A DNA stretch of 47,102 nucleotides from IMG/VR virus record IMGVR_UViG_3300034198_013392, positions 1 to 47,102 of that record. The stretch is one strand, 5' to 3'. Shown here in pieces: positions 21,882 to 36,872 of the stretch. Within the stretch, counting starts at the first letter, position 1. Each line of letters starts with the position of its first letter. The notes beneath the pieces are model-generated. The model worked only from the letters and a program-made list of their open reading frames with translations, did no database searches and was not told the DNA's origin. The translations under genes were made by a program, and so were the position numbers. Source of the stretch: a virus.

Positions 21882-22913
21882 ATGAGGAGAAACTGCCAAA
21901 AAGGGAAGCCGTGCGGTGCAACTTGCATAGATGCTAGTGAACGCTGCCTCAAGGATTTAGGGCTGGAAACCAGTAGGTCTACAGCCTCGGCAAGAGGGGC
22001 AGTAGAGAGAATTAGGTCAGCCCCCTATACATTGTCCCCATCTGTCAAGGCAAAGACCTACGACAACAATGTTGCCGCTCAAACAGAGGCAAAACGGGTA
22101 CTTCAGGGTCTTCAGGACGAGGGACGGATCAAGCGTGTTGATGGGGAGTTTAAGGAAAAAGACATTAACTGGGCATCTGCCTTAGGTGGGGGAGCGAAAT
22201 ACGTGGGCGGGGGAGACTATGGGGCGTTCGTAACGATGCCTGCTACATCTTTGTTAGGAGAAGAAGGTAGGGGTTTAAGAGTCGGGGTCAAAACCGGTCG
22301 AATAGGGACACATGAGCTAGAGGCTTTAAGGATCGCCGGGGACAATGGGATAGGTCCAAAGTTGCTTGGGGCTAAGACATCCAATAGAGAGGAGACTGAT
22401 AACTATGGTAATCAGTTTCGTAAGGGTGCCATAGCTATGACAAAGGTTGGGGCTTTGTCTTACAATAAAGCTCCTGAAGTGTGGGGAGGGGAGTCAAAGT
22501 CTGACATGCTTTGGAGAGCTGCTGCTGGTCTCCATAAGGCAGGAGTGGCTCATAACGACATGCACGGAGGCAATGTCCTTTTAAGCGCAAACGGAAAGGC
22601 GTACTTTGTGGATTTTGGACTTGCCCAGGTGTCCCCCAAGGCAGCTTTACTTGAGGCAGTAGGGGCAATCACTGGTGGAAACTGGCAGTTTAAGGGATCG
22701 ACGGATACCGGGTTGGGGGCTGTTGTCAAAGATAACTTGCCCAGAGTAAGGGACTTCCTACTGAGCCGAGGACTATCCCGAAACCAAGTATACCAGGAAT
22801 TGTTTGAGATGGAGATTAGGAGGGGAGACGGGGAGTTTAAGCAAGGGTTCTGGAAAAGGCTCAGTAATGATGATGCTAGGAAGGCAATCGAAATACTTTA
22901 CAAAGGGGTCTAA
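21882..22913 (+). CDS. Kinase-like protein 1 with N-terminal four-Cys segment
   Basis: In this 343-aa protein C5, C11, C15 and C22 form C-x5-C-x3-C-x6-C. The kinase domain follows: Gly-rich loop GGGDYGAF (109-116), VAIK-like Lys137 in VGVKTG, helix-C Glu145 or Glu147, catalytic loop AHNDMHGGN (D226, N231) and DFG at 244-246. HND in place of HRD recalls Bud32/RIO-type and aminoglycoside-type kinases. All residues needed for phosphotransfer are present. A shared C-terminal segment (WKRLSNDDARKAIEILYKGV) ends the protein. Substrate unknown. Residues 23-105 are a variable helical linker. It is the first of six paralogs in this block. Confidence 0.85.
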   Translation: MRRNCQKGKPCGATCIDASERCLKDLGLETSRSTASARGAVERIRSAPYTLSPSVKAKTYDNNVAAQTEAKRVLQGLQDEGRIKRVDGEFKEKDINWASALGGGAKYVGGGDYGAFVTMPATSLLGEEGRGLRVGVKTGRIGTHELEALRIAGDNGIGPKLLGAKTSNREETDNYGNQFRKGAIAMTKVGALSYNKAPEVWGGESKSDMLWRAAAGLHKAGVAHNDMHGGNVLLSANGKAYFVDFGLAQVSPKAALLEAVGAITGGNWQFKGSTDTGLGAVVKDNLPRVRDFLLSRGLSRNQVYQELFEMEIRRGDGEFKQGFWKRLSNDDARKAIEILYKGV

Positions 22914-22917
22914 GTAG

Positions 22918-22925
22918 GGGTAAAA
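22918..22925 (+). promoter_or_regulatory. GGGTAAAA element, candidate late promoter
   Basis: It starts five bases after the stop of kinase-like gene 1 and lies 29 bases before the GTG at 22955. Confidence 0.58.
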
Positions 22926-22954
22926 CCTTAGATAACGTTCCAACCCATGGTGAA

Positions 22955-23278
22955 GTGAACTTCCCCAGACCGCCCAGAGAGAAGATAGAGGAAATGTTGC
23001 CCCCAGGCACTTTGTCAGATAGTCAAACAAGTGCCGTATGGAGCTTCATGCTCAGGTGTTCAGATCCGTCAGATGTGGCCCATGCTTTCAGGGCCTATCG
23101 TGACAGTCCACATTGCACAGTCCCACACGAGAAGTTAAGGGCAATGCGTGACACTCTTATCATTGCAATGCGTGAGGCTAACAAGAGTTCCGACAGGCCC
23201 CTAAAGGAGAGGAAGAAAAACAGGCACTACCCGGACTACTTCAATACTTGGCACCCATCTGAGCGCAAATCTGCTTAA
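22955..23278 (+). CDS. Unknown helical protein, 107 aa
   Basis: It starts with GTG (MNFPRPPREKIEEMLPPGTL). The earlier ATG at 22947 runs into a stop after three codons. The protein is helical and basic with a long C-terminal positively charged region (KERKKNRHYPDYFNTWH). A central segment VWSFMLRCSDPSDVAHAFRA may be a small helical domain. No family is recognised. The next gene follows after 18 bases, so both are probably on one transcript from the GGGTAAAA element. Confidence 0.7.
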   Translation: MNFPRPPREKIEEMLPPGTLSDSQTSAVWSFMLRCSDPSDVAHAFRAYRDSPHCTVPHEKLRAMRDTLIIAMREANKSSDRPLKERKKNRHYPDYFNTWHPSERKSA

Positions 23279-23296
23279 CCACAACCCTGTATAAAA

Positions 23297-23662
23297 ATGC
23301 CGACAAAAAAGGAAAAGATTGAAAAACTTTTTAAGGTTCCCTGTGGTCCAACGGATGTAGATGCTGACGGGGTTTGTAGGAAATCGTTGTCCCCTGGCAT
23401 GGATAAGGTTATGGACAGATTGACTCGGGAGGTAAACCAAGAACTGCCCCCACCAGCAAAACTCCCCAAAGGGGTTACGACTGATGATTCTGGTAAGTTA
23501 ATGGTTGATGCGGCAGAGACTCCCGAAGAGCATAGGGCTAGGCTGATAGAAGAGGGTAAGTTAAGGGCAGAGGTTAGACACGCTGTGAAGCAGTACCAAG
23601 AGACCCTTCAAGGCAACTCTAAACTCTTGCAAGACATCACGGGTAAGATACAAACCCGGTGA
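23297..23662 (+). CDS. Unknown protein, 121 aa
   Basis: A basic N-terminal helix (PTKKEKIEKLFKVPCG) leads to DVDADGVC, which looks like a short calcium-loop-type Asp pattern but is too short to call an EF-hand. The rest is charged and helical, with a likely coiled coil near the C-terminus (AEVRHAVKQYQETLQGNSKL). Two Cys (residues 16 and 27) flank the Asp-rich part. No family is recognised. It is the second gene of a two-gene unit. Confidence 0.7.
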   Translation: MPTKKEKIEKLFKVPCGPTDVDADGVCRKSLSPGMDKVMDRLTREVNQELPPPAKLPKGVTTDDSGKLMVDAAETPEEHRARLIEEGKLRAEVRHAVKQYQETLQGNSKLLQDITGKIQTR

Positions 23663-23672
23663 GCTTTACAAA

Positions 23673-23680
23673 GGGTAAAA
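23673..23680 (+). promoter_or_regulatory. GGGTAAAA element upstream of the acidic protein gene
   Basis: It lies 24 bases before the ATG at 23705. Confidence 0.6.
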
Positions 23681-23704
23681 CTTTACTAAACTTTCATAGA
23701 AACA

Positions 23705-24469
23705 ATGAACAACAGAATTAGCGGTGACTTCGGGATGGATGCGTTGGAGGCTTTCAGAGCCGCCTATGCTCAAAGGGAAGTTAAGCCGGAAGACCTAGAG
23801 GTTGATAACTACACGGGACTGCCTACTGGGGAAATCACCAACATCTCTCCATGGATTCAGCATACAGGGCTTTGGAAAGCTAACCCAGGAACTGACAGAG
23901 CTTTTGTCCCCAATCAAATCCTAGAGCTTGAGGAAGACTTTGAGGATGAAGGAGAGCTGTCGGAAGAAGAGTTTGATCAGCTCGTAGATGAGGTTCTCTC
24001 TGATCTGGAGGAAGAGGAGAGGTTTGCCGACGATATCTACAACGGTGGGGACGATGAGGAAGATGAGGAAGATGAGGAAGAGATGGAGGATAGTGAACTT
24101 GAAAGTTTGATCGATAGGTTGCTATCTGAGAGAGAGGAGGAAGTTGAAGAGGTTGAAGAAGAGGTAGAGGAAGAAGTTGCCTCTGAAGAGGAACTTGAAT
24201 CCCTAATACAAGAAATACTTGAAGAGATTGAGGCTGAGGAAGAAGCTGAAGAAAGGGAGGCTGCTAAGAACCGTGAGGTTTCTAACGAGGAGTTAGAGGA
24301 CATGATCAATGATCTGGAGCCTGGTGAAGGTGAAGAGTCCGAGGATGGGGAGGAGGAAAACCCACCTCCTGATTCAGAGGACGAGGAGGTTGTCGAAGAG
24401 TCTGAGGAACTGAATGATGAAGAGATTGACCGCTTGGTGGACGAAATTCTAGGCGAAGAAGAAGAGTGA
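23705..24469 (+). CDS. Highly acidic protein with five helical repeats, 254 aa
   Basis: After an ordinary N-terminal 70 residues, the protein is extremely rich in Glu and Asp. Embedded in it are five copies of a short amphipathic pattern, roughly E-E-[LF]-[ED]-x-[LM]-[IV]-[DNQ]-x-[IVL]-L: residues 86-103, 128-143, 160-176, 193-205 and 236-251. Regular hydrophobic positions in an otherwise acidic chain suggest docking helices for a partner, or DNA mimicry. No known family is recognised. The gene lies seven bases before kinase-like gene 2, so the two are probably co-expressed. Confidence 0.8.
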   Translation: MNNRISGDFGMDALEAFRAAYAQREVKPEDLEVDNYTGLPTGEITNISPWIQHTGLWKANPGTDRAFVPNQILELEEDFEDEGELSEEEFDQLVDEVLSDLEEEERFADDIYNGGDDEEDEEDEEEMEDSELESLIDRLLSEREEEVEEVEEEVEEEVASEEELESLIQEILEEIEAEEEAEEREAAKNREVSNEELEDMINDLEPGEGEESEDGEEENPPPDSEDEEVVEESEELNDEEIDRLVDEILGEEEE

Positions 24470-24475
24470 GAGTAA

Positions 24476-25501
24476 ATGACTACATGGCTTTCTAAAAACT
24501 ATGTGGGGAAGGGAGAGAGGGCTCAGGTTGAGGTACCTGGGCCTCTTTTTCTTGAGGGAAAGAGGAAGTGTCGCAGAGGGAAGTCATGTGGTGCCTCTTG
24601 CATCAATAGAGCTAAGTTGTGCCTGATAGAAGCGTCTTTGTCGGTAAGGTCAGAAATAAATAGGGTTCGTTCCCTGGTTCAAAGATCCACCCAACCTGCT
24701 TTATCTGATGAAGAGAAGGAATGGAACAAGAAGTATTTCAAGAAAGTTTTTGAAAGATTAGGAAGTTTAGATAAGAAGGATGTCTCTATAGTTGACGGTG
24801 ACTATAAGGAAGGGGTTGTTAGGTGGAGTTCTGCCCTTAGGGACAAGGTAAACTTTATAGGAGAAGGGGCATTTGGCCAGTTTGCAACTGTGCCAGCCGG
24901 AGACTTGGTCAGAGGTGGTAGTAAGAAGTATCCCGGAGGTGTTGGCGTTAAAGTGGGAGAGATTGGGCCTCAAGAGGTGGAGGCAATAAGAAGAGCCGGT
25001 GAGTTGGGGGTTGGTCCCAGACTGATCGCCGCCAGGGTATCTAAGGTCAACAGGGAAGATTCTGATTACCCTGAAGGTGCCATAGCAATGTCAAAGGTTC
25101 CAGGGAGACGTTTGAGGGACATCCCTGGTGGAATAGAGGGTGGTACGTCAGGTAGAGCTATTATGGCGGCTGTGTCCATACTACATAAAACAGGGGTTTC
25201 CCATAATGACCTACATGATGGGAACATCTTTGTTGACAAGGGTGGTAAGGTTCACCTTGTGGACTTTGGGATGGCCAGAATCTCGCCCAAATACGCCTTA
25301 GCAGAAGCCATGAGACAGTTTGGCTCTCAGGGAAACTTGGACGATGTTCGGGAGAGACTTCTATCTCTAGGTGTCACTAAGAAGGAAATGTCAAGGATGC
25401 AGGTTTCCTTTGGGGATTATGTAAGTGGGGGTGGATGGGACAAGATTAACGACAGGCAAGCAATGTCCCTGATCAATACATTTTACAGGGGTAAAACTTA
25501 A
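24476..25501 (+). CDS. Kinase-like protein 2 with N-terminal four-Cys segment
   Basis: In this 341-aa protein the Cys segment is at C32, C38, C42 and C49, after a 30-residue extension that the other paralogs lack or have in different form. Kinase motifs: loop GEGAFGQF (129-136), Lys159 in GVGVKVG, Glu167 or Glu169, SHNDLHDGN with D245 and N250, and VDFG with D263. Catalytic residues are intact. The C-terminal segment is WDKINDRQAMSLINTFYRG, diverged from the LYEG ending. It follows the acidic repeat gene by seven bases with no promoter element between, and its stop overlaps the next GGGTAAAA element. Confidence 0.85.
   Translation: MTTWLSKNYVGKGERAQVEVPGPLFLEGKRKCRRGKSCGASCINRAKLCLIEASLSVRSEINRVRSLVQRSTQPALSDEEKEWNKKYFKKVFERLGSLDKKDVSIVDGDYKEGVVRWSSALRDKVNFIGEGAFGQFATVPAGDLVRGGSKKYPGGVGVKVGEIGPQEVEAIRRAGELGVGPRLIAARVSKVNREDSDYPEGAIAMSKVPGRRLRDIPGGIEGGTSGRAIMAAVSILHKTGVSHNDLHDGNIFVDKGGKVHLVDFGMARISPKYALAEAMRQFGSQGNLDDVRERLLSLGVTKKEMSRMQVSFGDYVSGGGWDKINDRQAMSLINTFYRGKT
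25489..25496 (+). promoter_or_regulatory. GGGTAAAA element within the end of kinase-like gene 2
   Basis: The element is inside the last codons of kinase-like gene 2 and 28 bases before the ATG at 25525. A run of nine or more A residues follows it. Confidence 0.58.
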
Positions 25502-25524
25502 AAAAAAAATAATGAATGAGTTAA

Positions 25525-26694
25525 ATGACCAACTCACTTGAGGCAGTGCCTGAGAAGCGTATCAACCAGGCTAAGAGAGCCCAGATGAAGAGAATGGGGG
25601 GCATGGTTTCCCAAGGGGCAAGGAAAAGGTGCAAGAAAGGGAAGTCTTGTGGGGCCGCCTGTATTAACAACACTAAAGTTTGTTGGGTTGACTTTCCGTG
25701 GGCAATGTCAAACGGACTGTCCAAAACTAGAGACACGGTTCAGACTAGGGGAACAAGCCAAAAACAACCAACTCCGGCCGCTGCGTCTATTTTAACCAAC
25801 AGAACTGCCGAAGCTAGAACAATAGCAGACGAAGTTGATGATACAATCGATAAGAAAGGGGTTTCATCTGAAAGGGGGGACAAGGGTTATGACTGGGAAA
25901 GGTCAAAGGGATCCGGATCAAAGTTTTTAGGTGAAGGGGCTTACGGAACTGTCACCACAGAGGGGGGATCTGGCAATGTTGTTAAAAGGGGGGAGATAGG
26001 AAAGGAAGAGGCTGAGGCCCTTGAGAAAGTTGGTAAGTTAGGCCTTGGACCCAGGCTGATAGCGGCTCAAGAGGATGGCTTGGTTTCACCGTCAGATCCG
26101 GCTTCTTTTGACATGAGGATAGGCAGGGTAGCAATGACTGCTGTCCCTGGCGAGATGATTGGCAAAGTTAGGGAGCCCGATGACAAGATTGGGGGGCAGA
26201 GAGTGGCGGATGCCTACTGGAAGGCTAGGGCTGAACTCCATAAGGCTGGCATTGCCCACAATGACATGCACATTGGCAATGTTTTGGTGGACAGTAGCGG
26301 AAAGGGGAGATTTGTTGACTTCGGGCTATCTGTAATTAGCCCTAAAGCTGCTTTTGCAGAGGCAATGGGGGCTTTTGCACAAGGGGGAAACGGGGATTAC
26401 CAGGTTAGGAGATGGAAGGGTACTGGAGGGGAGCTATTGAGGAGCGCCTTAAGTGCTAACGCATCTACTAATACGACCTTGCTTGATAGGGCACCTTTGC
26501 TAAAGCAGGTATGGGTCAACAGGTCAAGGGTGTTGGCTGAAATGGCTAAGGACGGCTTCCCCCCCAACATTGTAAACCTCTTGACCAATGGTGCTATAAA
26601 ACCTAAAGGGTCTTTCTTTGATAAGGGGGTATGGACGGAAATCTCCGATGCTCAGGCAAGGAAGTACGTCAGGATGCTTTACGAGGGTCTGTGA
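25525..26694 (+). CDS. Kinase-like protein 3 with N-terminal four-Cys segment
   Basis: This 389-aa protein has Cys residues at 36, 42, 46 and 53, preceded by INQAKRAQMKRMGGMVS and followed by WVDFPWAM; this whole N-terminal region is nearly the same as in paralog 4. The kinase domain, however, is closest to paralog 6: GEGAYGTV (137-144), Lys154 in NVVKRGEIG, Glu162, IGRVAMTAVPG, YWKARAELHKAGIAHND (D247, N252) and VDFG (D265). Catalytic residues are intact. An insert of about 60 residues follows the DFG region, and the protein ends ARKYVRMLYEGL. This looks like a recombinant between paralogs. Confidence 0.85.
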   Translation: MTNSLEAVPEKRINQAKRAQMKRMGGMVSQGARKRCKKGKSCGAACINNTKVCWVDFPWAMSNGLSKTRDTVQTRGTSQKQPTPAAASILTNRTAEARTIADEVDDTIDKKGVSSERGDKGYDWERSKGSGSKFLGEGAYGTVTTEGGSGNVVKRGEIGKEEAEALEKVGKLGLGPRLIAAQEDGLVSPSDPASFDMRIGRVAMTAVPGEMIGKVREPDDKIGGQRVADAYWKARAELHKAGIAHNDMHIGNVLVDSSGKGRFVDFGLSVISPKAAFAEAMGAFAQGGNGDYQVRRWKGTGGELLRSALSANASTNTTLLDRAPLLKQVWVNRSRVLAEMAKDGFPPNIVNLLTNGAIKPKGSFFDKGVWTEISDAQARKYVRMLYEGL

Positions 26695-26702
26695 CCCTGG
26701 AC

Positions 26703-26731
26703 TTGACAGCTTGACCCCAACGTGGTAAACT
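26703..26731 (+). promoter_or_regulatory. Sigma70-like promoter upstream of small gene 26748
   Basis: TTGACA (26703-26708, a perfect -35) and TAAACT (26726-26731) are exactly 17 bases apart, with the ATG 16 bases downstream. Confidence 0.75.
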
Positions 26732-26747
26732 TACAAGGTAACTGGTA

Positions 26748-26888
26748 ATGGGAAAGAAAATGAAGACCGATGACGAGCGTTACGTCGCACTTATGGACAA
26801 GTACAAGCATTTTCGGCATAAGGACAGGGAGAAGGCCCTTAAGTACCTGGATGCCGCCATGTCCCTGAAGGAGACGGGGAAAGTTAGT
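26748..26888 (+). CDS. Small charged protein, apparently truncated by a frameshift, 46 aa
   Basis: The frame starts MGKKMKTDDERYVALMDKYK and matches the 54-aa protein at 29299 (DDExY...M..YK..R...KK..A...LD.A..L). It stops at TAG 26886-26888. If one A of the AAAA at 26880-26883 is skipped, reading continues as VSDDGFLGGTYI to a stop at 26920-26922, aligning with VSPEVIEGMAYV of the relative. So this copy either lost a base relation recently, carries a sequencing error, or uses a +1 shift. It has its own good promoter. Function unknown. Confidence 0.6.
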
Positions 26889-26959
26889 GATGATGGGTTT
26901 TTAGGGGGGACTTACATTTGATTCAATAGCTAACTGGTGAGGTATCCGCAGTTAAAATA

Positions 26960-26967: not shown

Positions 26968-26990
26968 AACTATTTTAACTTGTGGCGAAA

Positions 26991-28148
26991 ATGGTCCCCG
27001 AGGCTAAGATCAATCAAGCCAAGAAGGCTCAGATGAAACGAATGGGGGGCCTAGTTTCTGGCTCCATGAGAAAGCGATGCAAGAAAGGCAAGAGCTGCGG
27101 AGCCGCTTGCATCAATAACTCTAAGGTTTGTTGGGTTGACTTCCCGTGGGCTATGGGCAGCTCTATTGGGAAGATGAGGGATACAGTCCAGTCTAGAAAG
27201 AAGCCCAAGGCAGCTAAGCAAAGCTCCCCCTACACAGTGAAATCCTTTACTCCAGAAACTGTAGGGAGTGTTTCTTATTGGAAACTTAGAGACTTGAAAG
27301 GTGTTAAGGATGACGCTAAAGAGATCCTTAATGACCTTAAGACTGAAGTTGGGGTTAAAAGAACAGACGGGGCTGTTAAGGAAAAGGACGTTAACTGGAA
27401 TGCAGCTCTAGGGTCAGGGGTTAGATTCGTTGGTAGGGGATCTTTTGGTGGATTCGCAGCCGTGCCTCCTGAGAAGTTTCTTAAGAAAGGGGGGAATAAG
27501 TACCCTGATGGGACAGGTATAAAGGCAGGGAACATAGGAGTGCATGAAGTAAAAGTTCTCAAAGCTCTCCAAAATTCAGACATAGCTCCCAGAATACTGG
27601 GGTCTAGGGTATCTTCTGAAGTGGAGAAGGACTCGTACGGGTTTGAGACGTCCAAAGGTGTGATAGCCATGACAAGGGTTCCGGGGAAAAGGTTCGCAGA
27701 CTCCCCGTCCACTCTGGCGAACGGTAAAGATAAGAGTGACGCCTATTGGGAGGCTGTGGCCAGGTTACATAAGCTAGGGGTTGCCCATAATGACATGCAC
27801 GGTGGTAACGTGTACATAGACTCTAACGGGAAGGGAAGGTTTGTAGACTTAGGACTAGCTCAGCTTTCCCCTAAGGCCGCTTTAGCAGAGGCGTTAGGGT
27901 TTAAAAACGGGGCTAACTACCAATTTGAGGGGTCATCATCCTTTGGTCACGGTTTAACGGCTTCAAGGAATCTCGACAAAGTGAGAGACATTTTGGAGAG
28001 TAAAGGGCTAAGTCCGTCCGACATTGCCACAATCATGAGGACAACCATCCGACAGTCTGACGACCACTTCGACAGGGGGGCATGGGCCAGACTCTCAGAC
28101 ACTGAAGCCAAAGCCTTAATCAATACCCTGTATGAAGGAATAGTTTGA
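26991..28148 (+). CDS. Kinase-like protein 4 with N-terminal four-Cys segment
   Basis: This 385-aa protein (388 aa if GTG 26982 is used) has Cys at 30, 36, 40 and 47 in the ATG numbering. Its first 65 residues are nearly the same as in paralog 3, but the kinase domain groups with paralogs 1 and 5: GRGSFGGF, Lys in TGIKAGNIG, EVKVLKAL, DAYWEAVARLHKLGVAHND, GGNVYID. The DFG motif reads VDLG, with Phe replaced by Leu; Lys, Glu, the catalytic Asp, Asn and the Asp of DLG are kept. The protein ends WARLSDTEAKALINTLYEGIV. ATG is chosen because of promoter spacing and alignment with paralog 3. Confidence 0.85.
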   Translation: MVPEAKINQAKKAQMKRMGGLVSGSMRKRCKKGKSCGAACINNSKVCWVDFPWAMGSSIGKMRDTVQSRKKPKAAKQSSPYTVKSFTPETVGSVSYWKLRDLKGVKDDAKEILNDLKTEVGVKRTDGAVKEKDVNWNAALGSGVRFVGRGSFGGFAAVPPEKFLKKGGNKYPDGTGIKAGNIGVHEVKVLKALQNSDIAPRILGSRVSSEVEKDSYGFETSKGVIAMTRVPGKRFADSPSTLANGKDKSDAYWEAVARLHKLGVAHNDMHGGNVYIDSNGKGRFVDLGLAQLSPKAALAEALGFKNGANYQFEGSSSFGHGLTASRNLDKVRDILESKGLSPSDIATIMRTTIRQSDDHFDRGAWARLSDTEAKALINTLYEGIV

Positions 28149-28172: not shown

Positions 28173-29210
28173 ATGAGCAAAAGATGTGAGAAGGGTAAGC
28201 CATGCGGGGCAACCTGCATAGAGAGGGACAAGGACTGCCTAATGGGCCTGGAGGCTAGTATCTCAAAATCCCTTAAATCAACACGAGGCGCAATCAAAGA
28301 GAAGTCGGCAGAATACAAGATCGCTAAGTCTGCCGACCCTTCAGCTAGGCCCAGTCAACTACAGGCACGGAGAGTTCTCAACGCCCTCAGGGAAGAGCAG
28401 AGCCTAGTTAAGACAGACGGGATAGTTAAGGAATCTGGAATCAACTGGAGAGCAATCTTAGGGTCTGACGTCAACCGTGTTGGTAGTGGTGATTTTGGGT
28501 CTTTTTCCTCCATACCTGGGTATAGGCTTATGCCCGATAAAGCGGACTACAATAAACTACCTAATGTGGTTGGGGTTAAAACTGGAAAGATTGGTCCAAA
28601 CGAGGTCAGGGCTTTAGACATTGTGGGGAAGAATGACTTAGGCCCTCAGTTGATAGGGGCCAGGGTATCACCGGAAGTCAAGCCGGGGAAGGGAAAGATC
28701 GAAGGGTCCAATGGGGCCATAGCTATGACGACCGTTCCAGGGCGCAGGTATAACTTCTCTCCCGCTGATATCAATGGGTACCCAAAATCAGAAATGTACT
28801 GGGAGGCGATGGCAGCTCTTCATAAGCTAGGGATTGCCCATAACGACCTACATGGGGGAAACGTAATGATTGATTCCTTTGGCCGCCCTCCTAAAGCCAG
28901 GCTGATAGACTTTGGATTGGCTCAGGTTTCTTCCAAGGCTGCGCTGGCCGAAGCCCTAGGCTCATTGAGCGGGACAAACTTCCAGTTCTCAGCGGAAAGA
29001 GGGAAAGGTCATGGTCTTACCGTCAGGGCTAACCTTCCATACATAGAACAACTGTTGATTGATAAGGGGTTCAGCAACAGGGAGATAGAGACGATTATGC
29101 AGGGTGGGATTAGGAAAAAGGAGAAGTTCTTCAATACTGGGGCTTGGGGGAGGCTCACGGAAGAGGAGGCCCAAGGGCTGGTCAGAGACTTGTACGAGGG
29201 TGTGGAATAG
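28173..29210 (+). CDS. Kinase-like protein 5 with N-terminal four-Cys segment
   Basis: This 345-aa protein begins MSKRCEKGKPCGATCIERDK with Cys at 5, 11, 15 and 22. Kinase motifs: GSGDFGSF (104-111), Lys136 in VGVKTGKIG, Glu144, IAHNDLHGGN (D225, N230) and LIDFG (D246). It has a small insert, FGRPPKAR, before DFG compared with its relatives. It ends WGRLTEEEAQGLVRDLYEGVE. It starts 24 bases after kinase-like gene 4 with no GGGTAA element between, so the two are probably on one transcript. Catalytic residues are intact; the substrate is unknown. Confidence 0.85.
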   Translation: MSKRCEKGKPCGATCIERDKDCLMGLEASISKSLKSTRGAIKEKSAEYKIAKSADPSARPSQLQARRVLNALREEQSLVKTDGIVKESGINWRAILGSDVNRVGSGDFGSFSSIPGYRLMPDKADYNKLPNVVGVKTGKIGPNEVRALDIVGKNDLGPQLIGARVSPEVKPGKGKIEGSNGAIAMTTVPGRRYNFSPADINGYPKSEMYWEAMAALHKLGIAHNDLHGGNVMIDSFGRPPKARLIDFGLAQVSSKAALAEALGSLSGTNFQFSAERGKGHGLTVRANLPYIEQLLIDKGFSNREIETIMQGGIRKKEKFFNTGAWGRLTEEEAQGLVRDLYEGVE

Positions 29211-29298: not shown

Positions 29299-29463
29299 AT
29301 GAAAGACGACGAAAAGTATCAGCGGGTTATGACTGCTTATAAGATTGCCCGCAGGGATCCCAAGAAGAGAGACGAAGCTAAGAAGCTCCTGGATGAAGCG
29401 TTCCGCCTTGAGAGAGAAGGGGAAGTGTCTCCGGAAGTGATTGAAGGTATGGCTTACGTCTGA
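29299..29463 (+). CDS. Small charged helical protein, 54 aa
   Basis: ATG has a strong ribosome binding site (AAGGAG, five bases upstream) and a near-consensus sigma70 promoter. The protein is helical and highly charged (MKDDEKYQRVMTAYKIARRD, KKLLDEAFRLEREG). It is the intact relative of the frameshifted gene at 26748. Both sit in front of a gene encoding the four-Cys segment and both have sigma70-like promoters, unlike the surrounding genes, so they may be expressed early. Function unknown; a small regulator is possible. Confidence 0.75.
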   Translation: MKDDEKYQRVMTAYKIARRDPKKRDEAKKLLDEAFRLEREGEVSPEVIEGMAYV

Positions 29464-29468
29464 GAATC

Positions 29469-30170
29469 ATGGCTTCTTTCGGGGGTAATAGATGCTCTAA
29501 GGGGAAACCATGTTTCACTGCCTGCGTCAACAGAGACTACCATTGTAGGTTTAACCTGGCTGAGCGGTTAAAGGGGCCTCTCAGAAGGATAGGGGACGAA
29601 ATCTCTGAAAAGGGAACTGACGTTGCCGACCACATTGGGAAAAACGTAGCAGCTTGGAAGGCAGGCAAGGTTCTCGGGAACCTTGTCTCTTCTTATTTGG
29701 AAAGTAGGTACGGAATCCCTAGGGATGCTAGTGTTAAGTTAGCTGAGACTGCCATTCAAGGGTTGACAGCTACAGGTATGGACATTAAGCATATAAAAAA
29801 CGCTGATGAGTTTTCCAAGAAGCTGTTTACAGAGTTGGCCGCAGCCTTTATAGGGAAAAGTTCCCACACAGGGGCAGAACTCATGCTATCTGCTAAAGAG
29901 GTTAGCACAATAGTTGAGACTGCCTTGCCGGTTTTGGCTGGAAAGGTCTCTGGAATAGGTGCCTCTATCCTTGCCAGCAGGTTACCCACCCCTAAAGAGC
30001 TATTGGCAATGGTTCAGGAAAGGTCTAAAGATGATATGGGGAAAGTTCAGGCTTTTCTGAGACCTTATACAAACTTTGCGGAGATGGACGACATTGTAGA
30101 GGTGCTGGGGGATGTGACCTTGATGGTGCTGGTTGGTTTGAAGGGGAAGATGGATACGGCCAAAGCCTGA
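29469..30170 (+). CDS. Four-cysteine-segment protein with a helical body, 233 aa
   Basis: Cys at 9, 15, 19 and 26 repeat the kinase-type C-x5-C-x3-C-x6-C, here as CSKGKPCFTACVNRDYHC with Phe-Thr-Ala replacing Gly-Ala-Thr. The body is all-helical and amphipathic (VAAWKAGKVLGNLVSSYLES, EVSTIVETALPVLAGKV), without kinase motifs and without a clear membrane segment. It shows that the Cys segment is a transferable N-terminal module. The start is six bases after the small gene's stop, so it may be read from the small gene's promoter. Confidence 0.85.
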   Translation: MASFGGNRCSKGKPCFTACVNRDYHCRFNLAERLKGPLRRIGDEISEKGTDVADHIGKNVAAWKAGKVLGNLVSSYLESRYGIPRDASVKLAETAIQGLTATGMDIKHIKNADEFSKKLFTELAAAFIGKSSHTGAELMLSAKEVSTIVETALPVLAGKVSGIGASILASRLPTPKELLAMVQERSKDDMGKVQAFLRPYTNFAEMDDIVEVLGDVTLMVLVGLKGKMDTAKA

Positions 30171-30252: not shown

Positions 30253-31218
30253 ATGAACCTAGACTTCTCTTCAGTGACGCTGCCGGGGGTAGGGGGAACC
30301 CTAAATGCAGCAACTGCCATATCCTCCGATAAACTAGAGCAGATGAACAAGGCTGGTAAAAAGTGGAGGACCGACGAAGACGGCAACCTGACATTCCACA
30401 ATGAATCTAAGCTGGAAGCTAATAAGGCTTCTAGAGAGCGTAGAAGGAACTTGATCAACCGGGACAGGAACGAAAATGCTGACTCTCAACAAGCTATGGA
30501 GGAAATCATGAGCAGAAAGAAGGCTAGAGCCAACGCCTTTATGGAGCTTAAGCGTAAAGAATACAACTTCGCTGATGACAGCGAGTTAATGTCAATGCCC
30601 CAACCATTCTCCCAAGACGGGTGTAGCAAGGGTTGCAAAGGCCCTGGTAAATGCTCATGTTCCTCCTGTAAGAAGGCTGTTGGGAAGCATACCTACAGGG
30701 AATGGAGTGATAAGGAGAGGCAGAAGCTGCAGGATGGTAAGGTCAAGGGTGAGTTCGCTGGCCCTAACATGTCATTCCCGATCGCTGGCCCCCAGGATGT
30801 ATCCTCCGCATGGTCATCCGTAGGCAGAGCCGCCAACCCTAGACAGGTGATGGCTGAGATCATCCGCATTTCCCGCAAGTATGGGTGGACTTCCGGTCTC
30901 CCTAAGTCCGTTAAGGACAGACTTGATAAGGGTGAATCTGGCTTACCCTCCCCGGAGTTCAGGGAGTGGCCCGAGGAGAAGAGGGTTAAGCTAAAGAAAG
31001 GGAAGATGAAGGGTGGTTTTGCTGGTCCTGGGACGTCCTTTCCGGTCTCAAGCCCCGAAGATGTATCCGCTGCATGGTCTTCAGTTGGCAGAGCAGATAA
31101 CCCCAAAAAGGTGATGGAGAACATAATCCGTTTAGCCAAAGAAAATGGATGGACAAGTGGTCTACCAGAAACCGTAAAACAACGTTTAGAGGCAGGTAAA
31201 TCAGGACTACCGGAGTGA
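30253..31218 (+). CDS. Protein with Cys cluster and two tandem copies of a phage domain, 321 aa
   Basis: Residues 1-105 are charged and helical. Residues 124-139 form a compact Cys cluster (C-x3-C-x5-C-x-C-x2-C). Residues 148-232 and 236-321 are two copies of one domain: YREW/FREW, then a Lys-rich turn, EFAGPNMSFPI / GFAGPGTSFPV, DVSxAWSSVGRAxNP, and GWTSGLPxxVKxRLxxGxSGLP. The FPI...DVxxAW...IIRxAKKxG layout resembles the DUF6582-type domain of phage head or scaffold-associated proteins; I hold this loosely. The domain duplication is clear from the sequence itself. Confidence 0.85.
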   Translation: MNLDFSSVTLPGVGGTLNAATAISSDKLEQMNKAGKKWRTDEDGNLTFHNESKLEANKASRERRRNLINRDRNENADSQQAMEEIMSRKKARANAFMELKRKEYNFADDSELMSMPQPFSQDGCSKGCKGPGKCSCSSCKKAVGKHTYREWSDKERQKLQDGKVKGEFAGPNMSFPIAGPQDVSSAWSSVGRAANPRQVMAEIIRISRKYGWTSGLPKSVKDRLDKGESGLPSPEFREWPEEKRVKLKKGKMKGGFAGPGTSFPVSSPEDVSAAWSSVGRADNPKKVMENIIRLAKENGWTSGLPETVKQRLEAGKSGLPE

Positions 31219-31222
31219 TGCC

Positions 31223-31558
31223 ATGGGGGTTGAAATCGTACTCGGTATTGCCGGTCTTCTCCTGACTGCCGCTTGTGGCGGCATAGGGGGAGCATTCTGG
31301 CTCCAGAATAAAGGCACAGAGAGAGTAGAGCAGGTAAGAAGAGCGTCCGACGACCGAGTTGACAAAATCTTTGCAGAAAATAAGTCCCAGATGGATCTGG
31401 TCTTGTCCCATGTTCAGAGAGTAGAAGACGTAATCAACGACATGAGGGCCGAACTACCCACTAAGTATGTCCTTAGAGAAGACCACCTTCGCTTAGTTGA
31501 GAAGGTTGAGAGTCTCAGGTTAGACTTCTACAGGAGGGAAGGGATAAGAGATGCTTGA
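31223..31558 (+). CDS. Single-span membrane protein with coiled coil, possible lysis or virion protein, 111 aa
   Basis: Residues 3-24 form one strongly hydrophobic Gly/Ala/Leu-rich segment (IVLGIAGLLLTAACGGIGGAF). The rest is a charged coiled coil (VEQVRRASDDRVDKIFAENK) ending with LPTKYVLREDHLRLVEKVES, a pattern common in small phage membrane proteins. An inner-membrane spanin-like or holin-accessory role is possible, but there is no second spanin candidate beside it. The gene lies four bases after the previous stop and overlaps the next by eight bases, so the set is coupled. Confidence 0.75.
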   Translation: MGVEIVLGIAGLLLTAACGGIGGAFWLQNKGTERVEQVRRASDDRVDKIFAENKSQMDLVLSHVQRVEDVINDMRAELPTKYVLREDHLRLVEKVESLRLDFYRREGIRDA

Positions 31559-32069
31559 CTTCCCTCTTGACCTTGACCGGCTTGCAAGCCTGGGGTTTAA
31601 CATAGACTTTATTGAAAAGTCTTTATCTAAAAACTACAGAAAAGGTCTGACTGCGGAGGAGCAAAGTATTGCTAAGCGGGAAGCCAAGGATACAATGTCC
31701 AGGGCCAAGGATCCATCCGTAGGGTCAAAGGAACTGTACAAGGATTGGGAATCTGACAAAAGGTACCGGGGCAGAAACAAGAACATCCCTAAGTCTAAGG
31801 CAACTAAGGCGTTTGAGTCCCGGTTCGCCGAAGATTCCTCTGTTGATGAGGCCCTTAAAGGTAAGGCAAAGGCGTCTGGCATTTCACTCTCTATCTTGAG
31901 AGAAGTTTACAACAGGGGGATGGCCGCCTGGCGATCGGGTCACAGGCCAGGAGTAGCTCCACAACAATGGGCATTGGGTAGGGTCAACTCTTTTGTGACA
32001 GGCGTAGGAAAGGCTAGGAAAGCTGATGCTGATCTGTGGGCAAAGCACAAGAAGACCAAAAGACCCTAA
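31551..32069 (+). CDS. DUF5824-type phage protein, 172 aa
   Basis: The C-terminal part (about residues 100-165) has the DUF5824 layout: KAKASGISLSILREVYNRGM, AAWRSGHRPGVAPQQWAL, GRVNSFVTG, ending KADADLW. The domain is common in phages and has no firm function. The N-terminal half is charged, with KDPSVGSKELYKDWESDKRY. It is coupled to the membrane protein gene by an 8-base overlap (ATGCTTGA). The neighbouring DUF6321-type gene is a frequent companion in cyanophages, which supports the assignment. Confidence 0.8.
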   Translation: MLDFPLDLDRLASLGFNIDFIEKSLSKNYRKGLTAEEQSIAKREAKDTMSRAKDPSVGSKELYKDWESDKRYRGRNKNIPKSKATKAFESRFAEDSSVDEALKGKAKASGISLSILREVYNRGMAAWRSGHRPGVAPQQWALGRVNSFVTGVGKARKADADLWAKHKKTKRP

Positions 32070-32077
32070 GGCATAGT

Positions 32078-32085
32078 GGGTAAAG
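32078..32085 (+). promoter_or_regulatory. GGGTAAAG element, candidate late promoter
   Basis: It lies eight bases after the previous stop and 26 bases before the ATG at 32112. Confidence 0.6.
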
Positions 32086-32111
32086 TTAGAAAGACAGTAC
32101 ATTAGAGAAAA

Positions 32112-32495: not shown

Positions 32496-32525
32496 TTAAG
32501 GTTAAGTCTTAATGGAGGCTGGTCA

Positions 32526-32918
32526 ATGTTTGGGTATTTTCCCGAAAATCTACTAGAGCAGTTTTACCATGATTATGGTGAAAGACTTGACAAGGGTGAG
32601 ATGGAGTGTAATAAGCCTAGGGCTACACCGAATCATCCTACAAAGTCGCATGTGGTTAAGGCGTGTTACCCTGGTGCCCCCGAAGGCGGGAAGTTGATTA
32701 GGTTTGGTCAACAGGGTGTCAAAGGCTCCCCCCATAAAGAGGGGGAATCCGAGGCTTACCGCAAGCGCAGGGAATCGTTTAAGGCAAGACACGCAAAGAA
32801 CATTGCTAAGGGGAAGTCCTCATCTGCGTATTGGGCAGATATTGTGAAATGGGCTGAATCAGTTAATGACCATGAGCTGCTAAACTTCATTACTTCTGTA
32901 AAGGGAGAAAAGGAATGA
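32526..32918 (+). CDS. DUF6321-type phage protein, 130 aa
   Basis: Residues about 60-105 match the conserved DUF6321 core: KLIRFGQQGVKGSPHKEGES, then RKRRESFKARHAKNIAKGKS and AYWADIVKW. The family is widespread in phages; some members are fused to other virion or packaging proteins, and its molecular role is unknown. The N-terminal half has Cys28 and Cys47 and a His/Pro-rich stretch. A ribosome binding site GGAGG is found seven bases before the ATG. The end overlaps the next gene by four bases. Confidence 0.85.
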   Translation: MFGYFPENLLEQFYHDYGERLDKGEMECNKPRATPNHPTKSHVVKACYPGAPEGGKLIRFGQQGVKGSPHKEGESEAYRKRRESFKARHAKNIAKGKSSSAYWADIVKWAESVNDHELLNFITSVKGEKE

Positions 32919-33211
32919 GGGGTGGTTTTTCAGAGGAGTCGCTCGACTTGTATCAATCTCTGGTTCAGCTATACACTGAGTCGGGAGAAGACTATGAGGG
33001 GGTGTATGACTTCACAAGGTGCATTAGGCCAGACGGGTCAATCTACGGAACCAAGGGAAGATGCACTCCACCTAATAAACCAGCCCCTGAGGGGGCTCCC
33101 GAGCAGCCAGAGTCTGTAGCAACCGATGCAATCCCTGATGTGAAGGAAGTTTCCGTGAGTATGGGCAGCTACAGTGCTAAGGTAAATGTTAACACAAAGG
33201 GTATAACATAA
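32915..33211 (+). CDS. Small protein with CxRPxGxxYGTxGxC segment, 98 aa
   Basis: It is coupled to the preceding gene by an ATGA overlap. Residues about 30-56 contain YDFTRCIRPDGSIYGTKGRC followed by TPPNKPAP, the same segment that opens the 412-aa repeat protein next to it. Both also share an N-terminal FSEESLxxYQxLxQxx helix. The C-terminal part is Pro/Glu/Val-rich and likely flexible. It seems to be a second type of Cys-containing N-terminal module, distinct from the kinase type. Function unknown. Confidence 0.75.
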   Translation: MRGGFSEESLDLYQSLVQLYTESGEDYEGVYDFTRCIRPDGSIYGTKGRCTPPNKPAPEGAPEQPESVATDAIPDVKEVSVSMGSYSAKVNVNTKGIT

Positions 33212-33230
33212 GTAGTTACCACCTGGTATA

Positions 33231-34469
33231 ATGTACGGAAACTTTTCAGAGGACTCTCTATCCCATTACCAAGAGATTCTCCAGTACCTAGAAGATCCCT
33301 CCCTAGAGTTCGAAGAAGGTGATACCTACGACTTCACAAGGTGTGTCAGACCTAATGGTACGGCTTATGGGACTAGGGGAGCATGTCAGGCCCCCAATAA
33401 GGTGGCCCCTAAGCAAGATGTTTCCCTGATGAATCAAAAGGATTTTGAGTCAGGTGGGGGACTTTCTGCTGTAAAGAAGGGCTTATCTTCTACCCAAGTT
33501 GTTAATAGGGGTAGGGACGCTCGTGCCAGGGCTTTTGGGTTTGGAGGTGGAACCTCAGCCATGGGCAAAAGCGGGCTTTCCAGAGACCAAATTGTGCAAA
33601 GAGGGGCTCAAGCTAGGGCCGCAGCTATTAAGGCTGGTGGTGGGGTTAAGCCAGGCTCATCAGCTAGAAAAGCAGATCAAGCTGCTCGAAGGGGGGCTCA
33701 AGCTAGGGCCGCAGCGTTTAAGGCTGGCGGTGGTGAGTCCTCTCTGAAGAAAGGAGAGAATAGAGAAGACATTATCCGTAGGGGGGCGGCTAGTCTGAAA
33801 GCTGCTTATGAAGCCGGTGGTGGGAGAAAGAAATACGATGAGACTCCTGAGGGGTATGGAAAGGCCGATGTTATCGCCCAAGGTAAGAAAAACTTAAAAG
33901 CAGCATTTGAGGCGGGTGGCGGTGAAGGTGCCAGGTCTAAAGGAATGTCAATTAAGGACATTATTGCCAAAGGGAACAAGGCCCTTAAAGATGCGTACAT
34001 AGCCGGAGGTGGTGATGTTGCCAGAGCCAAGCTGAAGGATAAGAAGCAAGTAATTGCCAAAGGTAAGAAGTCCCTTCAAGAGGCGGCTAAAGCTGGCGGG
34101 GGTAGCGTTGCGAGAGGTAAGAAGGCACTAGCTGATCCCGTTAATGAGACCAAGAGAAGTCTTACAGAGGCTGGGGGAGGCACGGCAGCTATACAGAAAC
34201 TCGGAGAGAAGTTCGCCAAGCGGGTAGGTAGAAAGCTCACCGACAAGGACTACAATGTTCTAGCGAAACTGGTGGAGAAACGTGGAAAGGCTGTCTTGAG
34301 TAAATACTTTGAGGATGGGGGCGGTAAGAAAGCCTTGGTGTCTGGTAAGTCAGTTGACGACATCATTAACATCGGAGAGAAGATTGCCAAGGATAAAGCG
34401 AGAAAGGCAAAGGAGCAAAGGGCAAGGAATCTGAGAAGTCAGATTGATAGAGAGAGCCAATCCGTATAA
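33231..34469 (+). CDS. Basic repeat protein with ten A-G-G-G units, 412 aa
   Basis: The N-terminus carries the YDFTRCVRPNGTAYGTRGAC segment. From about residue 73 the protein is a row of units of roughly 30 residues of the kind DIIxRGxxxLKAAxxAGGGxxxxxKG, with ten GGG turns, then a Lys/Arg-rich end. Each unit would form one or two helices capped by a Gly turn. The strong positive charge suggests binding to DNA, RNA or an acidic partner, perhaps the acidic repeat protein encoded at 23705. No known family is recognised. A TATAAT-like TATAATG overlaps the start and may be chance. Confidence 0.8.
   Translation: MYGNFSEDSLSHYQEILQYLEDPSLEFEEGDTYDFTRCVRPNGTAYGTRGACQAPNKVAPKQDVSLMNQKDFESGGGLSAVKKGLSSTQVVNRGRDARARAFGFGGGTSAMGKSGLSRDQIVQRGAQARAAAIKAGGGVKPGSSARKADQAARRGAQARAAAFKAGGGESSLKKGENREDIIRRGAASLKAAYEAGGGRKKYDETPEGYGKADVIAQGKKNLKAAFEAGGGEGARSKGMSIKDIIAKGNKALKDAYIAGGGDVARAKLKDKKQVIAKGKKSLQEAAKAGGGSVARGKKALADPVNETKRSLTEAGGGTAAIQKLGEKFAKRVGRKLTDKDYNVLAKLVEKRGKAVLSKYFEDGGGKKALVSGKSVDDIINIGEKIAKDKARKAKEQRARNLRSQIDRESQSV
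33450..34360 (+). repeat. About ten degenerate 90-100 base coding repeats
   Basis: The protein repeat of the 412-aa gene shows at the DNA level as GCTGGTGGTGG-type islands spaced about 90-100 bases. The copies around 33600-33740 are the most alike (GGGGCTCAAGCTAGGGCCGC occurs twice, at 33604 and 33694), pointing to recent unit duplication there. Confidence 0.8.
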
Positions 34470-34486
34470 AACTTAGTTCATTAGGG

Positions 34487-34510
34487 GGGGTGCTACACCC
34501 CTTTCTTTTT
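34487..34510 (+). terminator. Rho-independent terminator after the repeat protein gene
   Basis: GGGGTG (34487-34492) pairs with CACCCC (34496-34501) around CTA, followed by TTTCTTTTT. Confidence 0.88.
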
Positions 34511-34531
34511 CCCCTACTTTGGTTGCAAATT

Positions 34532-34538
34532 GGGTAAG
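34532..34538 (+). promoter_or_regulatory. GGGTAAG element, candidate late promoter
   Basis: It lies 25 bases before the ATG at 34564 and after a terminator. The 14 bases GGGTAAGTATCTAA are the same as at 30219. Confidence 0.62.
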
Positions 34539-34563
34539 TATCTAATAATCCTCCCTGACCATT

Positions 34564-35055
34564 ATGCTAGGCCGTTTCGACATCCCCTCCGTAGATCACT
34601 TAAGAGAAGGGGTTGATTACCAGATCATAGATTGGGACTTTGCAGCTAGCGCCCCGATCCCCCACACCCCTGGGGAGTCGTGCCCCCCTGGAACCAAAAT
34701 GGTGTTCGGAATGTGTCGTCGTGTTAAAGAGGGGACGCAGGATTGGAACACTGACGAAGACAGTGATTCAGAAAGAGCTGGTAAGATCAAGGCCAAGGAA
34801 GTGGGGTCGTCTTTCCAGAACAACAAGCCTGTTGAGGTTGGCGGGAAGAAGTACGGATGGGCCAAGAAAGGCGGAAAGGACGTTCTCGTTGCTTGGGGGT
34901 CGGTCTGCGCCAAAAAAGATAAAGACGGGAATTGCATCAGTTCAACAGGTCAAGTTACACCTAAACAACCCACCCCTGCTACACCTGCACCTGCACCAGC
35001 CCCCGCACCTCCAGCCCCAGCCCCAGCCCCCGCACCCGCTCCTATATCCGCCTGA
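34564..35055 (+). CDS. Cys-containing protein with Pro-Ala tail, 163 aa
   Basis: The protein has an N-terminal region (MLGRFDIPSVDHLREGVDYQ), a CPPGTKMVFGMCRRV segment around residues 39-53 with two Cys, a small strand-rich segment (VEVGGKKYGWAKKGGKDVLV) and a second Cys pair (VCAKKDKDGNC). From about residue 132 it is a Pro-Ala repeat (PAPAPAP) of about 30 residues, which would form a stiff extended tail. No family is recognised. It opens a three-gene unit with the coiled-coil protein and kinase-like gene 6. Confidence 0.75.
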   Translation: MLGRFDIPSVDHLREGVDYQIIDWDFAASAPIPHTPGESCPPGTKMVFGMCRRVKEGTQDWNTDEDSDSERAGKIKAKEVGSSFQNNKPVEVGGKKYGWAKKGGKDVLVAWGSVCAKKDKDGNCISSTGQVTPKQPTPATPAPAPAPAPPAPAPAPAPAPISA

Positions 35056-35061
35056 TCTAAA

Positions 35062-35068
35062 GGGTAAG
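35062..35068 (+). promoter_or_regulatory. GGGTAAG element, candidate late promoter
   Basis: It lies seven bases after the previous stop and 23 bases before the ATG at 35092. Confidence 0.6.
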
Positions 35069-35091
35069 ATTAGTAAAATAGCCTAAGTAAA

Positions 35092-35568
35092 ATGAGAAAG
35101 GATTCGATCGACTCAGAAGCCTACGAAAAGGCTCTCCAGATGTTTGCCGAAAGGGGGCTGCAAATCGAGGGATTTACCCATACCCCTACTGACTATGCTA
35201 AGGGCACGGTCATGGAACCTGAGCAGGTTTCATCCCTAAGGGCTAGTTTCGCAGAGTACGAAAGTCTTGGCAAGAAGCAAAAAGACTTAACGGAAAGGAT
35301 AAACACCTTGAATGAAATGATGAAGGCATCGAGGCAAAGGGGTGCCTTTCAGGTTCTTCAGGATCAAATGAAAGAGGTGAAGAATCTTGTTAAGCAAAGG
35401 GAGGATATTGATGCAAAAATGTCTGTTATTGACCTTGCTAGGAAGAAGGAAGACGACCGCCGCATAGCAGCTAGTCAAGAGACTTCATATTCTGAGAAGA
35501 TAAATGAGGTGGGGGAGCGTATTGCTAAACTTGAGCAAATGCTTCTTTCATACTCAGAGGAGCAATGA
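35092..35568 (+). CDS. Coiled-coil protein coupled to kinase-like gene 6, 158 aa
   Basis: From about residue 45 the protein is a long charged coiled coil with leucines at heptad-like spacing (LTERINTLNEMMKASRQRGA, then NLVKQREDIDAKMSVIDLAR, and ERIAKLEQMLLS at the end). The first 40 residues are different (YEKALQMFAERGLQIEGF). The stop overlaps the start of kinase-like gene 6 (ATGA), so the two are made together and may form a complex. No family is recognised. Confidence 0.78.
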   Translation: MRKDSIDSEAYEKALQMFAERGLQIEGFTHTPTDYAKGTVMEPEQVSSLRASFAEYESLGKKQKDLTERINTLNEMMKASRQRGAFQVLQDQMKEVKNLVKQREDIDAKMSVIDLARKKEDDRRIAASQETSYSEKINEVGERIAKLEQMLLSYSEEQ

Positions 35569-36872
35569 AGAAAAGGTGTCAAAGGGGCAAGTGTTGTGGT
35601 GCGTCATGTATCGAAAGGGCTGACGACTGCTATGAAGGGTTGAGTGCCCTGATAAGAAATGCCTTAATTTCAGTTAGAGAAAACATTCAGCAAAGCGGGG
35701 CATCCAGAAAAGCTCCGGTAGCTCAGGGCAACCAGCAACAGATAGATAAACTGATTAAGGCTCTGGACTTAGGGCCGTCAGAGCGGATCAAGGTAGGTAG
35801 AAACTTTGACGACCTGCGGGCAATGGCTCTTGAGAGGAAAAAGGAACTTTGGGAAGAGATCACCGCTAAAAGGAAGATTGGGGGTCCTAAGGCTAAGGCT
35901 CAAGAGAAGGCCCTTATGGTTGATTACAATGCCATAAAGGATGCTCTGCAGGGCACAGCAGGAGCGAATGGACAAGGTCCCTCTGTAAGAACCAAAGGAT
36001 CTAGAATAAAGGCTAAATCCTTCGATGATACGTTTGTAGCTACCCGGTCATTCAAGGGTAATCAAAACGACTTCGACTGGGAAGGGTCCATCAAGGGTAG
36101 TACGTTTGGGGGTAAGGGGGCCTTCGGAACCGTCTTATTCACCAAAGATGGCGTCGTGAAGAGGGGGGAGATAGGGGTCAATGAGGCCAGCATAATTAAG
36201 AAGGTTGGGGAGTTAGGTCTGGGCCCTTCCCTTGTCTATGGGGAGTTAGGGAGGAAAAAGGGAAACTTTGGGGGTTCAGATGTGTACATTGGCAGGGTAG
36301 CCATGTCAAGGGTTGAAGGTATGCCCCTGGGGAAGTATTCATCCGCCAGTGATAGGGTGGGTGGTTCGACCGTGGCTGATTTGTATTGGAAGGCAAGGGC
36401 CGACTTGCACCGGGCGGGCATAGCCCATAATGATGCCCACGGGGGGAACTTCTTTGTCAGTGGTAACGGGGTGGGGAAGTTCGTGGATTTGGGTCTTGCC
36501 CAAGATAACCCTAAAGCTGCCCTATCAGAGGCTATTGGCAGCGTAATGCACAGGGGTAGACTACCGGCTGGAGCCACATTAAACAAGAACATCAAGGGAG
36601 ACTTCCAGGCCCAGAGCCAGCAGTTTAACGCAAATGCAGGGTTCTCTCGTCTAAGGGAAAGAATGCCAGAAACTTTGGGAAAAATCAGTGATAATCTCCC
36701 CAAGGTTGAGAACTACCTGACTAAGAAAATGGGAATGTCGCCCGACCAGGCTGCTATGGTAATGGCATCTGGCATCAGAAATCCTGAAGGCTTCTATTCT
36801 GCGGGGTCATGGAGCAAGATTTCCGATAGTGACGCCAAGAAAATGATTGATTTGCTCTACGAGGGTATCTAA
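35565..36872 (+). CDS. Kinase-like protein 6 with N-terminal four-Cys segment
   Basis: The longest paralog (435 aa) has Cys at 5, 11, 15 and 22 plus an extra Cys10 (CQRGKCCGAS). A helical insert of roughly 100 residues precedes the kinase domain, which has GGKGAFGTV (182-190), Lys199 in GVVKRGEIG, Glu207, GIAHNDAHGGN (D290, N295) and VDLG (D308) in place of DFG. Catalytic residues are kept. A second insert with many Gln/Asn follows before the closing WSKISDSDAKKMIDLLYEGI. The domain is closest to that of paralog 3. It stands apart from the other kinases, coupled to a coiled-coil gene. Confidence 0.85.
   Translation: MKKRCQRGKCCGASCIERADDCYEGLSALIRNALISVRENIQQSGASRKAPVAQGNQQQIDKLIKALDLGPSERIKVGRNFDDLRAMALERKKELWEEITAKRKIGGPKAKAQEKALMVDYNAIKDALQGTAGANGQGPSVRTKGSRIKAKSFDDTFVATRSFKGNQNDFDWEGSIKGSTFGGKGAFGTVLFTKDGVVKRGEIGVNEASIIKKVGELGLGPSLVYGELGRKKGNFGGSDVYIGRVAMSRVEGMPLGKYSSASDRVGGSTVADLYWKARADLHRAGIAHNDAHGGNFFVSGNGVGKFVDLGLAQDNPKAALSEAIGSVMHRGRLPAGATLNKNIKGDFQAQSQQFNANAGFSRLRERMPETLGKISDNLPKVENYLTKKMGMSPDQAAMVMASGIRNPEGFYSAGSWSKISDSDAKKMIDLLYEGI

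Follow-up and report, generated by a model that had tools for sequence, protein, structure and literature searches.

The window analysed here, a 47,102-base IMG/VR virus record (IMGVR_UViG_3300034198_013392), is a genome fragment that carries six kinase-like genes (K1 to K6), each encoding a short cysteine module near the N-terminus, together with a family of small partner genes that recurs beside kinases of this kind. A sequence-only reading had described six kinase-like products of 341-435 amino acids (aa), and all six open reading frames (ORFs) are present where it placed them. Five of the genes span 7.3 kb and K6 lies another 6.4 kb downstream. The start of K4 is ambiguous (GTG 26982 or ATG 26991), and no clear ribosome site was seen.

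21882..22913, + strand: kinase K1, 343 aa; cysteine module at residues 5-22; in one clade with K2, K4 and K5
24476..25501, + strand: kinase K2, 341 aa; cysteine module at residues 32-49; PF00069 score of 35.5 bits, above the cut-off
25525..26694, + strand: kinase K3, 389 aa; cysteine module at residues 36-53; kinase domain of a separate clade
26982..28148, + strand: kinase K4, 388 aa from GTG 26982 (385 aa from ATG 26991); cysteine module
28173..29210, + strand: kinase K5, 345 aa; cysteine module at residues 5-22; AlphaFold2 model
35565..36872, + strand: kinase K6, 435 aa; cysteine module at residues 5-22; directly upstream of the baseplate/fibre gene

Alignment confirmed the earlier claim that every catalytic residue is retained. 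Numbered after K5 (28173-29210), the Gly-loop, K136, E144, H223-N224-D225-x-H227-x2-N230 and D246-x-G248 are invariant in the six proteins, which are intact at 38-50% identity to one another. Among 91 distinct relatives, the catalytic Asp and the DxG Asp are each kept in 91/91, the Lys in 79/84 (counting sequences that span this position) and the helix-C Glu in 85/87. As aligned here, this conservation across the six and their relatives is far beyond chance.

Profile searches revealed matches of kinase-superfamily models (PF00069/APH/ABC1) to all six proteins, with the best E-value per protein between 9.5e-9 and 0.007. The top Pfam model was Pkinase for K1, K2 and K5, APH for K3 and K4, and ABC1 for K6, and Bud32 was the top NCBIfam model throughout (E 1.3e-9 to 1.7e-4). 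A fold prediction was made for K5 alone among the six: the AlphaFold2 model (27 sequences) has a mean pLDDT of 87.5, rising above 90 through the kinase domain. In Foldseek it matched protein kinases, including DAPK1 and Bud32, with a probability of 1.00 and an E-value of 2.3e-6 (about 1e-6) at modest TM-scores (0.3-0.5). The best matches among viral models were the kinases of phages S-H34 and S-CBWM1, plus entry F5B400. Together, these sequence and model comparisons support the view that the six are kinase-like paralogues and apparently catalytically competent.

The N-terminal cysteine module and its counterparts

All six kinases share an 18-residue module, C-x5-C-x3-C-x6-C, within their first 55 residues, with the consensus C-x2-G-[KR]-x-C-G-A-x-C-I-x5-C. 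The same module heads two non-kinase proteins of the window, the second of which is kept in environmental relatives such as L046 (L-numbers denote loci or contigs of environmental relatives fetched for comparison).

20020..20403, + strand: non-kinase protein, 127 aa, with cysteine module
29469..30170, + strand: non-kinase protein, 233 aa, with cysteine module

In Synechococcus phage S-CBWM1, six-frame translation of the whole genome yielded exactly five proteins with the module: gp106, the kinases gp113 (RIO-like), gp161 (ChoK-like) and gp162 (APH-like), and gp174, which is annotated as a virion structural protein and adjoins the major capsid gene. A secondary account of the S-CBWM1 virion reports gp113, gp161 and gp162 from virions and does not name the untagged PknB-like gp173 among the virion kinases. 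Virion data also exist for S-CREM2, whose kinase gp14 was detected with 21 unique peptides. By sequence comparison, the window kinases are homologous in their kinase domain to these virion-associated cyanophage kinases and to PKN8, that of S-CRM01; the virion-associated kinase of S-TIM5 is a further known system. The earlier suggestion of packaging into the virion thus gains support from relatives, and for the six window proteins themselves packaging would follow by analogy.

The module also appears to be mobile. K3 and K4 are 77% identical over the tag and 39% identical over the kinase domain, and their kinase domains fall in different clades, which argues that the front module has been exchanged between the two lineages. 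Across the family, cysteines 1 and 3 covary (both in 54 sequences, C1 alone in 0, C3 alone in 2). That they are nearly always kept or lost together hints at C1-C3 and C2-C4 pairs, as zinc ligands or as disulphides, a hint weakened because the sequences are related.

Other tagged proteins were observed among the relatives. L050:6290-10672 encodes a 1,460-aa protein with the cysteine module and three consecutive kinase domains. A second tagged, effector-like family combines the module with an HNH-like core (L034:1480-3327, L037, L040, L059, L022, L032 and L045; S-CBWM1 gp106 and gp174), many members lying directly after PhoH. The HNH reading is based on a motif and a weak Cas9d match (E 1.8e-5); a model of one such protein (pLDDT 57) was too poor for structural reading, and similarity to the S-CREM2 'Cas9' gp12 was too weak to claim homology. 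Short two-Cys starts (C-x10-12-C, then basic residues) occur on neighbouring proteins at window 34564-35055 and 23297-23662 and on S-CREM2 gp15, and may belong with the module to one wider tag class.

Beyond the window, the kinase domain is joined to a range of other N-terminal parts. Pattern searches over 94 distinct kinase-domain ORFs from the fetched loci assigned the four-Cys module to 40, an FTRC/DGxxYGT start to 19, a two-Cys variant to 12, a MuF domain to 12 and a T4-type capsid-targeting start with a GFGYW motif to 4; a further MuF protein, in L073, was missed by the pattern and found by Pfam. Both MuF and kinase domains were recovered by Pfam in 12/12 MuF-kinase proteins tested. A 951-aa protein (L057:2304-5159) unites MuF head, zeta-toxin and family kinase domains, and a 4,300-aa protein (L071:5618-18520), whose tape-measure identity was confirmed by PHROGs, holds the kinase domain at about residues 1467-1601. 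The window itself encodes two proteins with the FTRC-type start, which heads kinases in L023, L026 and L060.

32915..33211, + strand: alternative-start protein, 'FSEESL..Y' + 'DFTRC.RPDGS.YGT'
33231..34469, + strand: second FSED/DFTRC-start protein, with Gly-rich repeats

The T4-type start resembles the short N-terminal sequence that targets T4 internal proteins into the head: S-CREM2 gp14 begins MKRFDAFLTE, and T4 internal proteins II and III begin MKTYQEFIAE. In S-CREM2, all five proteins with such a start were detected in virions, as against 52/219 proteins overall (P = 6e-4). A capsid-targeting peptide of the MxxYxxFIxE type is present in the S-CREM2 and S-CRM01 relatives and absent from the window kinases, which differ at the N-terminus from these T4-like cyanophage kinases and carry the cysteine module in its place; nor did the window kinases match the MuF domain. 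The joining of one kinase family to so many virion-associated parts provides the strongest sequence evidence for travel in particles.

A small partner gene beside the kinases

Directly 3' of K3 and of K5 lie two small unannotated genes whose products belong to one family with members of about 55 residues.

26748..26921, + strand: partner P3, 57 aa, directly 3' of K3
29299..29463, + strand: partner P5, 54 aa, directly 3' of K5

Among 82 unique kinases, 59 are followed, no more than 400 bp past the 3' end, by a partner that mostly touches or overlaps them; at several MuF loci the partner is encoded on the other strand, tail to tail with the kinase. The S-CBWM1 member of the family is gp114. The partner also directly follows the kinase in the isolates S-CREM2, S-N03, S-H34, S-B68 and S-CRM01, where it is annotated 'hypothetical protein' and starts with a similar short sequence (MKDLSKFLRE, MKKLDQFLTE). 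The family found no fit among Pfam families or named PHROGs.

A partner occurs in 37/42 kinase-bearing versus 1/8 kinase-free records (Fisher P = 6e-5), a test that serves as a guide only, the records being related and fragmentary. A partner-centred scan with a narrow profile placed 21/22 loci next to a kinase. The partner is kept where the kinase has been cut down to its tag (L018, 5802-6077; L107-109), and an orphan copy (L158:12955-13140) occupies precisely the position ahead of the fibre gene that kinases use, in a 71.9-kb record from which kinases of this family are entirely absent.

Kinase lineages and the surrounding island

Phylogenetic analysis placed K1, K2, K4 and K5 in one clade (support 98/93) whose nearest kin are kinases of L010, L011, L014, L015 and L021 (100/97); in L010, L011, L014 and L021 these kin occupy the same slot, downstream of a gp108-like gene. 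K6 lies directly before the baseplate/fibre gene, the kinase slot in most relatives. The tree thus divides the six into three lineages, one expanded here (K1, K2, K4 and K5) and one each for K3 and K6. A single ancient array was rejected because K3 and K6 fall outside the main clade, and the picture of six genes side by side gives way to one of two slots and three lineages. K1, K2, K4 and K5 would descend from a single kinase that multiplied in the window's lineage.

The window holds the most kinase genes among 36 related records, six in 47 kb versus 1-4 in up to 279 kb, a ranking relative to those records since the sample is not random. Four kinases are present in S-CBWM1 and three or four in several related contigs, so the expectation of one kinase at most per phage finds no support in that form; S-CREM2 has one, and loci reached through an independent neighbour gene carry 0 to 2 intact kinases each. 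A broken copy occurs in L011:14968-16165, where a pair of overlapping ORFs replaces the single gene. When 84,980 species genomes of bacteria and archaea were scanned, 20 short matches were returned, most of them in Planctomycetes and none cyanobacterial; with matches at motif level only, no recent cellular source was seen, and a host origin was rejected.

The setting points to a cyanophage. The terminase large subunit shares 54% identity with that of S-CBWM1, and a common gene order (tail genes, terminase, PhoH, small genes, large baseplate/fibre gene) links the window with S-CBWM1 and dozens of environmental contigs. The host is probably a cyanobacterium, and the kinase region would be a late-gene island of virion-borne effectors, bordered as follows.

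15228..16949, + strand: terminase large subunit, similar to that of S-CBWM1; context
20968..21789, + strand: PhoH-like protein; left border of the island; context
36937..42156, + strand: fibre/baseplate protein, homologue of S-CBWM1 gp116; right border of the island; context

Several further features were observed here. Coding-strand purine bias is strong at 22000-36000 (GC skew to 0.35), coinciding with the effector island only. Between terminase and PhoH, a GC-richer patch (0.55; 17321-19932) carries minus-strand ORFs, of which 18270-18968 matches phage families of unknown function. Within the island, 23705-24469 encodes an extremely acidic protein with conservation confined to its N-terminal part; the product of 30253-31218 is well conserved, at 43-72% across 69 contigs, and shows a weak DUF6582 match and a C-terminal segment present twice; and that of 31551-32069 is a DUF5824 protein resembling the C-terminal end of phage cytidyltransferases, one of which is among the S-CREM2 virion proteins. 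A tRNA-Val called by ARAGORN at 38807-38890, within the large fibre ORF, is probably spurious.

Proposed virion delivery and competing explanations

The explanation that we favour, and hold to be rather probable, is that these are virion-borne, active kinases, loaded by the tag and delivered to phosphorylate host proteins, with the small partner cooperating. The proteins would be active members of a phage-specific protein-kinase-like family, synthesised late in infection. The N-terminal cysteine module would take them into the particle, and they would enter with the genome and phosphorylate host proteins as the next infection begins. The partner would act with the kinase, either as inhibitor or immunity protein or as regulatory subunit. 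Several points weigh against this explanation: Pfam scores for several of the six lie under the curated cut-offs, an adjacent partner is found at just two of them (K3 and K5), their virion location is a prediction from relatives and the cysteine module is a proposed loading signal. The virion report for S-CBWM1 is second-hand, and the S-CREM2 authors allow for contamination as the source of virion kinases in CsCl-purified preparations.

A further point against it, the roughly equal scores of APH-type small-molecule kinase models, leads to enzymes that would phosphorylate small molecules such as host metabolites or antibiotics, in the manner of APH or choline kinases, and not proteins. ABC1 models, too, nearly equal Pkinase, and the S-CBWM1 relatives are annotated APH-like and ChoK-like; however, the HNDxHxxN and DFG cores fit Pkinase best in K1, K2 and K5, Bud32 leads the NCBIfam models for all six, and the MuF and tape-measure fusions look like protein-directed effectors, so that we regard small-molecule substrates as unlikely. 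It is likewise improbable that the kinases act late inside the infected cell, in assembly or lysis, with structural proteins of the phage or proteins of the host as targets, and reach virions by carry-over. Their position in the late region between PhoH and the fibre genes would suit such a role, and the S-CREM2 data did not exclude carry-over, but the family has been united repeatedly, across phage lineages, with virion modules (MuF, tape measure, T4-type capsid-targeting start). That several of the six are decaying, functionless duplicates seems very improbable: broken or truncated copies do occur in relatives (the split gene of L011, the tag-only remnant of L018), but none of the six ORFs here is broken or has lost a catalytic residue, however far they have diverged.

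The role of the partner bears on a fourth explanation, a polymorphic toxin-immunity system in which the kinases would be toxins aimed at rival infections or at cells without protection, with the partner as their immunity protein. It overlaps with virion delivery as a special case, and we consider it a tentative possibility. In MuF toxins, a small ORF for immunity usually follows directly (PMC5576092); this precedent, the downstream position of the partner at 59/82 kinases and its persistence beside truncated kinases (L018, L107-109) or alone (L158) suggest an inhibitor or immunity protein, and the conserved tag with diverged catalytic part in K3 and K4 fits as well. The partner of T4-like cyanophages, however, has a capsid-targeting-type start of its own, which suggests a co-delivered regulatory subunit, since packaging would not be required of an immunity protein; in S-CREM2 virions gp13 was detected, though with a single peptide, and four of the six window kinases are without an adjacent partner. 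The evidence favours neither role.

Comparison with known systems shows what is shared and what differs. Virion-associated cyanophage kinases have already been published, and the kind is therefore known; S-CBWM1 has kinases with the same cysteine module, and its island between the PhoH and baseplate genes is syntenic. The MuF polymorphic toxins of phages (PMC5576092) are a second comparison: among the relatives analysed here, 12 contigs encode MuF proteins that end in a related kinase domain, with the small gene adjoining, although kinase domains go unmentioned in that study and the window kinases are without a MuF domain. Polyvalent-protein kinases are likewise predicted phage-delivered protein-kinase-like effectors; they are described as lacking the C-terminal subdomain and as having extra sequence inserted between catalytic His and Asp (PMC5512222), whereas in the window H-N-D is contiguous and several C-lobe helices are predicted after DFG in K5. 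The effector kinases OspG and LegK, as well as Bud32, share the kinase core and differ in N- and C-terminal parts. The relative L050 matches OspG_kinase with 46 bits, above the cut-off; a Pfam search that allowed E-values up to 1 gave no OspG hit to any window protein. Within the libraries searched, novelty lies in the set of six kinases, in one tag common to kinases and other proteins, in the swapping of delivery modules and in the partner gene.

A wider possibility, to which we give somewhat less than even credence, is that kinase and partner form a two-part, virion-delivered phosphorylation system across unrelated phages, with a delivery module particular to each lineage (cysteine module, FSED/DFTRC, T4-type, MuF or tape measure). 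The cysteine module would then be a general virion-loading signal for effectors in a large environmental cyanophage-like group.

Earlier cyanophage virion kinases stood as single curiosities, with neither a target nor a route into the particle known. Directly testable handles now come from the common tag, from the swapping of delivery modules and from the linked partner, and annotators of phage genomes can seek the tag together with the tiny partner gene, so far only a 'hypothetical protein' in the isolate records checked. If the favoured explanation is true, phages of abundant aquatic bacteria would inject a variable complement of kinases as infection begins, much as pathogens deploy sets of effectors.

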